Source: Candidatus Sungbacteria bacterium RIFCSPLOWO2_02_FULL_51_17
GTDB taxonomy: Bacteria > Patescibacteriota > Minisyncoccia > Sungbacterales > GWA2-42-14
Length of the DNA: 50,463 bases
Assembly (NCBI GenBank): GCA_001820785.1
Contig: MHQW01000043.1
Location: 24,931 to 75,393, forward strand
Direction: 5' to 3'
The notes below the pieces were generated by a model. It was not told where the DNA came from. It made no database searches and saw only the letters and a list, made by a program, of their open reading frames with translations. Below are positions 43,553-46,596 of the stretch, in pieces; position 1 is the stretch's first letter; the number at the start of each line of letters is the position of its first letter. The translations under genes were made by a program, and so were the position numbers.

Positions 43553-44557
43553 TTAAATAAGATGTCTCTGCTCCGGCTGGGAAATGCCCATGTGCTGCCA
43601 CGCAAGTGCCGTTGCAACGCGGCCCCGCGGGGTTCGTTCCAAAAAACCAACCTGCATAAGATACGGCTCATAGACGTCTTCAATGGTTTCTTCTTCCTCG
43701 GAGGTCGCGGCGGCGAGCGTTTGAACGCCCACCGGCCCTCCCTGGAATTTTTTAATGATCGCTTCAAGTATTTTCCGGTCTGTCGGTTCAAGGCCGATCC
43801 GATCTATCTCAAGCAGTTGTAAGGCCCGCGTTGCCATCTCAAGGGTCACTACGCCGTTTCCCTCAACTTCTGCATAGTCCCGCACCCTTTTGAGTAGGCG
43901 GTTCGCCACGCGAGGTGTTGAGCGCGAGGATTCTGCCACCAGGCGCCTGGCGGCGGGATCAATTGTTACTCCGAGGAGTGCTGCTGATCGGGCAATAATC
44001 TTTTCCATGTCTTCCGGCGTGTAGAAATCAAGGCGGAAAATTCCACCGAAGCGGGAGCGAAGCGGAGAGGACAGAAGGCCAATGCGCGTAGTCGCCGCTA
44101 TGAGGGTAAAAGGGGGAAGCTCCAGCTGGATCGTCCGCGCGGACGGGCCCTTGCCGATAATGATATCCAAGGTGCGCGATTCCATAGCCGGATACAGCAC
44201 TTCTTCTATGAGCTTGTTTAAGCGATGCGCCTCGTCAATGAACAGAACGTCTCCCGGCATAAGGTTCGTCAGAATGGAGGCAAGGTCTCCTACGCGCTCA
44301 ATGGCGGGCCCCGAAGTCACCCGAATATTTGCTCCCATTTCTTTTGCGATGAGAAAAGAAAGAGAGGTCTTCCCAAGGCCCGCCGGGCCGTACAGCAATA
44401 CGTGTTCTATTGACTGTCCCCTGTTTTTTGCCGCCTGAATGAGTATTTTAAGATTCTCCTTAATGGCGGGTTGTCCGATATACTCCTCCCAGCGCTGTGG
44501 GCGGAGGGAAAGGTCAAGCGACCGGTCCTCATTTTTTTGTTTTGGTTCGGTAATCAT
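43553..44557 (-). CDS. ruvB: Holliday junction branch migration ATPase RuvB
   Basis: 334 residues. RuvB pattern [12 protein letters not shown], Walker [17 protein letters not shown], Walker [28 protein letters not shown] and a C-terminal winged helix ending RTPRGRVAT. It drives branch migration with RuvA and hands the junction to RuvC. First gene of the five-gene leftward operon. Confidence 0.97.
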
Positions 44558-44586: not shown

Positions 44587-44615
44587 TTGACAAGAATAAG
44601 TTTATTTGCTACAAT
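44587..44615 (+). promoter_or_regulatory. consensus sigma70 promoter upstream of the candidate RNA
   Basis: A perfect TTGACA and TACAAT separated by exactly 17 nt on the + strand, pointing away from ruvB and toward the pilB 3' end. Start is expected near 44622. No + strand protein gene follows. Confidence 0.7.
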
Positions 44616-44622
44616 GAATCCG

Positions 44623-44913
44623 ATACGAGGGTACAGGAGGGGCCGCGGCCCCATTTGTTTTGCCCTTTTTCTGAAGAAGCTCGGCTGTTGTTGTGTTTGG
44701 CACCTAGAAGTGTACTATTATTGTCCGGCGAACACAAAGCACGAGGCGCCTCAAAAAGCTGTGGGCAATTAAGGTGTTAAATACCTTTTTAGCCTTAATG
44801 GGGATTTTTACATGTCGGTTGGCCTGGTTTCGACTGGGCCACACCACAGAAAAGTCCTGACCTCCGAGTTCCCAAACCGGAGTAATTGCCCACAGCTTTT
44901 GGAGGTGTTTTTT
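44623..44913 (+). ncRNA. candidate structured non-coding RNA (type unknown)
   Basis: Starting from a consensus promoter, the sequence GGCGCCTC-A-AAAAGCTGTGGGCAATTA (44745-44771) can pair with its complement at 44883-44909: 18 Watson-Crick pairs in a row, then one mismatch and 8 more with wobble, closing a 111-nt interior with further hairpins, followed by T6. In the leader lies GCGAAC...CAATTAA, which reads ANTKHEAPQK...; the interior contains TGGTTTCGAC, a motif also near the 5' end of tmRNA. Neither a tRNA-like domain with CCA nor a tag ending in LAA is visible, so tmRNA is not claimed. A 6S-like rod is an alternative. Confidence 0.45.
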
Positions 44914-44934: not shown

Positions 44935-46596
44935 CTAGCCGATGACGCGTCGTACTTCCGCAAGGTCAGTAACGCCCCTAAGAACTTTCAACACGCCATC
45001 CTGTTTCATGGTGATCTGCCCCTGTCGTTTCATGGCTTCGCGCATTTCGGCAACGGTCGGTGATGTCTTGATGATTTTCTCCAGTTCATCGTCAACGAGG
45101 ATGATTTCAAAAACGCTGATACGGTTTTTATAGCCGAGTTCGCAGGCGGTACACCCTTTTTCATTCGCAGAAAAAATACTGATAGCGGAGAGTTCCGGCC
45201 GTGGCAGTCCCGCCGGCATATCTTCAATTGCTTGCACGATAACCGCGCGCTCGTCGGGGGTTGGTTCATGGGGGGTGCGGCAGACAGGACACAGGCGCCT
45301 GACGAGTCGTTGTGCCATGGCGACATTAATAGCGGGCGCAATGATGTTTGGTTTTACACCTATGTCAATAAGCCGCGGGATCGTTCCTGCGGCATCGTTC
45401 GTATGAAGGGTGGAGAACACCAGGTGTCCGGTAAGGGCGGCGTGAAGAGCCGTCTCCGCTGTTTCTAGATCGCGGATCTCGCCCACCAGAATAACATCGG
45501 GATCCTGGCGCAGGATTGAACGGAGGCCTGATGCGAAATCATATCCGCGCCGCACATCAATCTGCGTTTGTTCAATGCCGCGCAGGTGGTATTCAATCGG
45601 GTTTTCTAGGGTAATGATCTTCGTCTCCGGCGTATACACCTTTTTTATGAACGCATAAAGCGTGGTGGTCTTTCCGGAGCCGGTTGGTCCGGTGGTAAGG
45701 ATCATGCCGTTCGGTTTTTCCAATTCTTTTCTCATGCGCTCTTCCACCCAGGGCTGCATGCCAAGATCTTCAAGGGCCAAGCTGATCGTTTTTGGGTCCA
45801 AAAGCCGCATCACGATATTCTCACCGTCGGGACCGGGAAGCGTGGATACGCGCACCTCCAGTTCGTTGCCGGACGCGCGTATGGTAAAGCGCCCGTCTTG
45901 TCCGCGCTCTTTGATGTTGAGCAGGATCCCGGATATGAGTTTGATGCGGGAAAGAATGAATTTATACGTCGGGGCTGGCAGGAACGCGACATCGTGGAGG
46001 ACCCCATCAAGACGATAGCGGAGACGGATCGCCTCCGGCTGGGGCTCTATATGAATATCCGACGCGTTGAGCTTAAGAGCGCCGCCGATGATGAGCTCCA
46101 GGACCTCGGTAACGCTTTTGTAGATGACGGCATTAATGAGCGGAGTGATGGATTCGGGGGTGGTGATGAGGTTGCGGTAGTGTTCCAGGCGCGCCTCCGA
46201 TACGGTTATTTCTCCGGATATGCTGCCAAGGTCTTCCGGGAGAGATTTATACAGCTCCCATGCCTTTTCCAAACTGTACTGCGATACCAAAAAAAGCTTG
46301 TTCGGATTGTAGCGGTTTTGTTTCAGTTCTTCCAGTACCGCCAAGGTCTCGGGTTTCTGAGGGTTTTTAACTGCGACCTGAAGATTTTTGCCGACTTTTT
46401 GTACGACCGCAAGTCCCGCGCGCCGCGCCTTTTCTTCCGGGACTAGCTTTAGGGCGTCCGTATCTATGGGGACCGTGCCCAAATTCAAATAAGGGATCTT
46501 GTACTTTCCCGCAAGGATCTTCACCATTTCTTCCGCCTCCTGATGGCGGAGCTCTTTTATTTTCAGTTCCTGCCGTTCTTCGTCAAAGGCGACCAT
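44935..46596 (-). CDS. pilB: type IV pilus assembly / type II secretion ATPase PilB-GspE
   Basis: 553 residues. A MshEN-type N domain precedes the ATPase with DIHIEPQPEAIRLRYRLDG, Walker A TGPTGSGKTTTLYAF, the Asp box, Walker B ILVGEIRDLETAE, the His box and a tetracysteine zinc-binding knob CPVC...CTAC. It powers pilus extension or secretion. No other pil genes are within the window; the ATPase is downstream of the DHH-type gene, 93 nt apart. Confidence 0.95.
   Translation of the reverse strand: MVAFDEERQELKIKELRHQEAEEMVKILAGKYKIPYLNLGTVPIDTDALKLVPEEKARRAGLAVVQKVGKNLQVAVKNPQKPETLAVLEELKQNRYNPNKLFLVSQYSLEKAWELYKSLPEDLGSISGEITVSEARLEHYRNLITTPESITPLINAVIYKSVTEVLELIIGGALKLNASDIHIEPQPEAIRLRYRLDGVLHDVAFLPAPTYKFILSRIKLISGILLNIKERGQDGRFTIRASGNELEVRVSTLPGPDGENIVMRLLDPKTISLALEDLGMQPWVEERMRKELEKPNGMILTTGPTGSGKTTTLYAFIKKVYTPETKIITLENPIEYHLRGIEQTQIDVRRGYDFASGLRSILRQDPDVILVGEIRDLETAETALHAALTGHLVFSTLHTNDAAGTIPRLIDIGVKPNIIAPAINVAMAQRLVRRLCPVCRTPHEPTPDERAVIVQAIEDMPAGLPRPELSAISIFSANEKGCTACELGYKNRISVFEIILVDDELEKIIKTSPTVAEMREAMKRQGQITMKQDGVLKVLRGVTDLAEVRRVIG

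Follow-up and report, generated by a model that had tools for sequence, protein, structure and literature searches.

A structured RNA family of Paceibacteria, absent from Rfam and encoded between ruvB and pilB, with a tentative 6S-like role

Canonical 6S RNA has a length of 160-200 nt and comprises a closing stem, a large 5'-central bulge with a hairpin opposite, and an apical stem that carries internal loops and a terminal loop (PMC8414754). In lactic acid bacteria (LAB), conservation of the product RNAs (pRNAs) covers 11 nt and fades beyond, and the hallmark of known pRNAs is a GG at positions 4/5 or 5/6 (PMC8414754). The sequence of 6S is not conserved, and the existence of one abundant RNA polymerase-binding RNA per species, possibly escaping the current models, has been proposed (PMC11077062). 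Ms1 and CoRP of actinobacteria are the precedent for lineage-specific abundant RNAs that bind the polymerase and are missed by 6S models (PMC11077062); with about 300 nt and about 500 nt, respectively, they are unlike the RNA described here, and no homology is implied. This RNA is encoded in a stretch of 50,463 nt (the window) from Candidatus Sungbacteria bacterium RIFCSPLOWO2_02_FULL_51_17, contig MHQW01000043.1, positions 24,931 to 75,393.

Positions 44748-44909 of the window are the core of a stand-alone gene for a structured non-coding RNA; this gene is transcribed on the + strand and has its own strong sigma70 promoter. The core belongs to a new RNA family of the class Paceibacteria (Parcubacteria), absent from Rfam 15, and the existence of this family is practically certain. 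The original prediction had left the choice between a new RNA and a very divergent ssrA, and the first of these is strongly supported by the lack of any Rfam match together with covariance model homologs in more than 100 genomes. Two models were used, R1 built from 12 members of the order and the broader R2. The elements of the core are as follows.

44748-44909, + strand: conserved RNA core matched by the covariance models (R2, 148 bits, E 8e-33 in the window; R1, 166 bits)
44748-44769, + strand: 5' strand of the closing stem P1, two-sided changes in 22 of 22 pairs
44770-44797, + strand: optional hairpin P2 on the 5' side of the junction, two-sided changes in 5 of 5 pairs, absent in 13 of 99 members
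44801-44858, + strand: apical stem P3 with an internal loop, covariation in helices 3-5
44824-44837, + strand: P3 tip CUGGUUUCGACUGG, a tandem U.G/G.U beneath a UNCG-type loop, containing TGGTTTCGAC
44862-44882, + strand: hairpin P4 CUCCGAGUUCCCAAACCGGAG, opposite P2, two-sided changes in 8 of 8 pairs
44885-44906, + strand: 3' strand of P1, covariation

The structure is supported by compensatory changes in alignments that were obtained in different ways. In a first MAFFT alignment, not fitted to the structure, two-sided changes were found at 37 of 56 predicted pairs, and a second one of the same kind gave 33 of 59 pairs against 14.7 in shuffles. The alignment of 99 class members showed them at 56 of 59 pairs, and its top 38 covarying column pairs all fell within the model, this alignment being fitted to the covariance model and hence biased towards that structure. 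Pairs of the G-U type outnumbered A-C by 711 to 122, and by 369 to 93 after removal of the conserved wobbles, which points to selection on the + strand transcript. An antisense transcript was considered and rejected, as both this bias and the promoters point to the + strand; the weak covariance model matches on the opposite strand at the same place (40 bits) are explained by the symmetry of P1.

The fold energy reaches -123.6 kcal/mol compared with -88.9 for shuffles (z = -7). The 18 unbroken pairs AAAAGCUGUGGGCAAUUA/UAAUUGCCCACAGCUUUU, which had been pointed out along with the T6 at the end, are present as described, inside a longer closing helix. An RNA of about 290 nt had been expected, and its strong fold holds; conservation is confined to the core, whose length in the family is mostly 147-174 nt (range 124-216). 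Within P1, conservation is split, with 1.37 bits per position in the junction-proximal part vs 0.36 in the outer 11 nt. The P3 tip of the class members follows the consensus YUGGU-UNCG-ACUGG, in which the G-C pair is invariant in 100 of 100 sequences, while the G.U and U.G pairs are kept in 83 and 69 of them. P4 is a bulged hairpin on the 3' side, with a loop that often reads CCCA; a pseudoknot of this loop with the UGGG preceding P3 found no support in covariation. Palindromic or repetitive inserts, e.g., TTACTAGTAACTGG and ATATTTAAATATT, are found in the P3 loop of L008, L010, L012-L014, and L016, so that this loop tolerates insertion. Similar repeats are also present downstream of the RNA in some loci.

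The host is represented by a 1.24-Mb draft genome (G000), whose nearest relatives are Sungbacteria-type Parcubacteria, and its family-mates include contigs labelled Candidatus Sungbacteria and Parcubacteria group bacterium. By BLAST, the core was found in 5 of 5 family-mates and in at least 10 members of the order, with a variable leader of about 125 nt. A covariance model made from relatives, as the original prediction had suggested, revealed conserved structure in close relatives: with R1, the RNA was detected in 21 of the 23 order genomes and in 116 of the 286 class genomes. Strict filters make the figure for the class a lower bound, and the family is thus present in at least a hundred species. 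Each genome holds a single locus. An exact pattern scan across genomes gave matches in Sungbacteria, Yanofskybacteria, and Azambacteria; its lone match in Firmicutes (L151) was discarded, having no covariance model match. Literature searches for structured RNAs of Parcubacteria found none; small RNAs of Paceibacteria/Parcubacteria were not reported in the literature searched, and none is mentioned in one review of Patescibacteria biology.

The RNA gene is intergenic, between ruvB and a gene for a PilB/GspE-type ATPase, both on the minus strand. The surrounding features are listed below.

44587-44615, + strand: sigma70-type promoter TTGACA-17-TACAAT with an extended -10 (TG), 11 of 12 consensus matches
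44622-44747, + strand: variable 5' leader, running from the inferred start site up to P1, its sequence not kept in relatives
44639-44660, + strand: terminator-like hairpin GGGGCCGCGGCCCC with a T-rich tail, within the leader
44908-44913, + strand: U6 tract immediately after P1, the probable terminator end, with U-tracts at the same place in many homologs
43553-44557, - strand: ruvB, divergent neighbour (NCBIfam RuvB, 488 bits), conserved synteny
44935-46596, - strand: pilB/gspE-type ATPase gene, convergent neighbour (NCBIfam PilB/GspE, below the equivalog cut-off), conserved synteny

The promoter, already recognized in the original prediction, is conserved in the family: upstream of P1, a promoter with at least 11 of 12 matches was present in 80 of 99 members, compared with 0 of 99 shuffled upstream regions. 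In 16 of 99 members, P1 begins no more than 15 nt past the -10 box (about 10 nt in several), and the RNA there thus starts at or near P1. The leader is longer in the order to which the window belongs, and a GC-rich, terminator-like hairpin followed by U was found in 14 of 20 leaders of this order, where 0.7 were expected. This hairpin, GGAGGG...CCUCUUUU, which lies between promoter and core, may serve attenuation or processing; the leaders concerned are that of the window (44622-44747) and those among L040-L060. Within the fetched flanks of 91 loci, a few of them sampled twice and seven from other classes, ruvB was present in 79 and pilB in 80. Wherever these genes occur their orientation is constant, with ruvB upstream and divergent and pilB downstream and convergent.

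Outside the class, seven weaker matches (E 8e-8 to 5e-5) were obtained within the phylum. Two of them, L133 and L139, also adjoin ruvB, which supports homology. Three others, L134, L135, and L138, adjoin a vanW-domain gene and share the invariant stretch CAGGCACGACAAG with L136; these four fold into P1, a 10-nt 5' bulge, and an apical stem, with no P4. The vanW-linked set is likely homologous to the RNA of Paceibacteria. As a type, the four RNAs (L134:956-1068, L135:1501-1611, L138:1501-1612 on the minus strand, and L136:1501-1626) show a closing stem of 18-20 bp and a 10-nt 5' bulge of near-invariant sequence inside the invariant CAGGCACGACAAG, and three of them are convergent to the vanW-domain gene.

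The 6S-like shape noticed in the original prediction is upheld as a resemblance, and membership of the 6S family is not. With a core of mostly 147-174 nt, the RNA is comparable in length to 6S RNA (SsrS, RF00013; about 160-200 nt), with which it also shares a monocistronic gene that has its own promoter and a probable terminator. Both ends join in a closing stem, here the 22 pairs of P1; the hairpin opposite the 5'-central element corresponds to P4, present in nearly all class members and absent in the other-class set; and the apical stem with an internal loop and a capped tip corresponds to P3. Where 6S has its large 5'-central bulge, the other-class set has a 10-nt bulge, most Paceibacteria have the P2 hairpin, and 13 of 99 members have nothing. 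Sequence conservation is limited to the junction-proximal 10-11 nt or so of the closing stem, and the adjacent gene encodes in both cases an AAA+ DNA-repair ATPase, rarA for the 6S of Firmicutes and ruvB here. The match in layout, together with the split conservation of P1 that mirrors an 11-nt pRNA template, suggests a 6S-like mechanism in which the RNA would regulate RNA polymerase. This analogy, which predicts binding to the enzyme, is given not quite an even chance. The RNA would be abundant and act in trans through a protein, the likeliest partner being the housekeeping sigma-RNA polymerase, engaged in the manner of 6S. P1 could mimic downstream DNA and P3 upstream DNA, and the part of the central bubble would fall to the P2/P4 junction and, in the other-class candidates, to the unpaired 10-nt 5' bulge. 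A short release RNA might then be templated by the conserved 10-11 nt next to the junction in the 5' strand of P1.

Several observations weigh against such a mechanism. RF00013 has no match at the window loci or in the distant members, and a search of the complete genome at E <= 10 gave none either, although the same Rfam model finds ssrS of Escherichia coli at 139.8 bits; conversely, R2 misses ssrS in the very stretch where Rfam scores it. The putative pRNA template gives AUUGCCUACAG, which has no GG at either of the hallmark positions (4/5 or 5/6). The junction of most Paceibacteria carries a paired hairpin on its 5' side and has short linkers only, and given also the 13 members that lack a 5' element, the ready-made open bubble is missing. 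Promoter mimicry leaves unexplained the invariant features of the P3 tip and the P4 loop, and the conserved U.G/G.U tip is itself a difference from 6S. Because the covariance models match in neither direction, the pRNA GG is lacking, and the junction of most members has little single-stranded sequence, the RNA is not filed as 6S RNA; that it acts like one is proposed tentatively, as somewhat less than an even bet.

The main rival is a trans-acting stable RNA that forms the core of another ribonucleoprotein (RNP), be it ribosome-associated, bound to an RNA chaperone, or a scaffold with no known counterpart beyond the candidate phyla radiation, and unrelated to RNA polymerase. This is a real possibility, if a minority one, as the near-invariant P3 tip and the P4 loop, which is recurrently C-rich, are reminiscent of protein or tertiary contacts, the four-way junction has short linkers, and no Rfam 15 family is significant for the RNA in the window or for the distant members (sub-threshold snoRNA and miRNA matches are attributed to chance). 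It leaves unaccounted for the sharp conservation boundary in P1 and the 6S-type layout, and no candidate partner was found. Rather unlikely is a core RNA of an altogether new category in the candidate phyla radiation, spread over several classes with or without P2 and P4, which would act neither as 6S nor as a known RNP RNA and would have a function novel in bacteria.

The fixed position of the gene suggests a cis-acting element of the pilB-ruvB region, i.e., a divergent or antisense transcript, or a terminator acting in both directions, which would keep the two co-oriented genes apart or regulate ruvB. The RNA nearly always lies between divergent ruvB and convergent pilB in a single orientation, and P1 is a strong hairpin on both strands. 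However, the structure under selection belongs, by its G-U pairs and promoter, to the opposite strand from both genes, a terminator would need far less than four helices that bear internal loops and conserved tips, and the other-class candidate homologs adjoin a vanW-domain gene instead, so this explanation is improbable. Less probable still is a regulator of the RuvAB machinery, to which the RNA would bind as a four-way junction. The geometry and the persistent linkage to ruvB, which includes L133 and L139 of other classes, would fit it, but members without P2 are three-way, the vanW-linked set has no junction, and the linkage is explicable as inherited operon order.

The signal recognition particle (SRP) RNA could be thought of as well, since none of 55 class genomes and none of 116 phylum genomes gave a match to RF00169, and the RNA might stand in for it. 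The Ffh M domain was likewise missing from all 55 class genomes (14 of 14 controls were positive), leaving no SRP protein to be bound, and matches to the SRP54 GTPase domain are weak, comparable to those of other P-loop proteins. The RNA itself showed no helix 8 motif of SRP. Judged from sequence, the class Paceibacteria seems to lack the SRP pathway, which is commonly called universal; the RNA is thus not an SRP RNA, and the stand-in has only the slightest chance.

Searches of the locus with RF00023 (transfer-messenger RNA, tmRNA) and RF00010 (RNase P RNA) likewise gave no match. A candidate RNase P RNA of this genome lies at G000:C15:27940-28547 (77 bits, with the gathering score at 100), and its span of 608 nt compared with the 367 positions of the model suggests a large insertion. 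The resemblance to tmRNA amounts to one short string, TTCGAC, and a frame that is there by chance: the GCGAAC...TAA frame is literally there, its start lying in the variable leader and its remainder overlapping P1, so that no tag is conserved, and TGGTTTCGAC, also literally present, is the apical tip of P3 and no tmRNA element. Since both a tRNA-like domain and CCA are missing from the RNA, and a complete tmRNA is encoded elsewhere in the genome (G000:C41:37046-37481, 106 bits), a very divergent ssrA is refuted for this genome and next to impossible. The tag that ARAGORN assigns to this tmRNA, ANLSTWQKAFAAFNGRIGFAPAFA, is long.

Few uncultured groups of bacteria are as large as the Paceibacteria/Parcubacteria, and in them this single-copy structured RNA offers a ready target, given its strong covariation, strong promoter, and fixed synteny. 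If the RNA does bind RNA polymerase, regulation of the 6S type would exist in lineages where the models see none, as PMC11077062 predicts. If it does not, the family would be a new RNA class. Either way, its covariance model can be deposited and used to probe existing metatranscriptomes.
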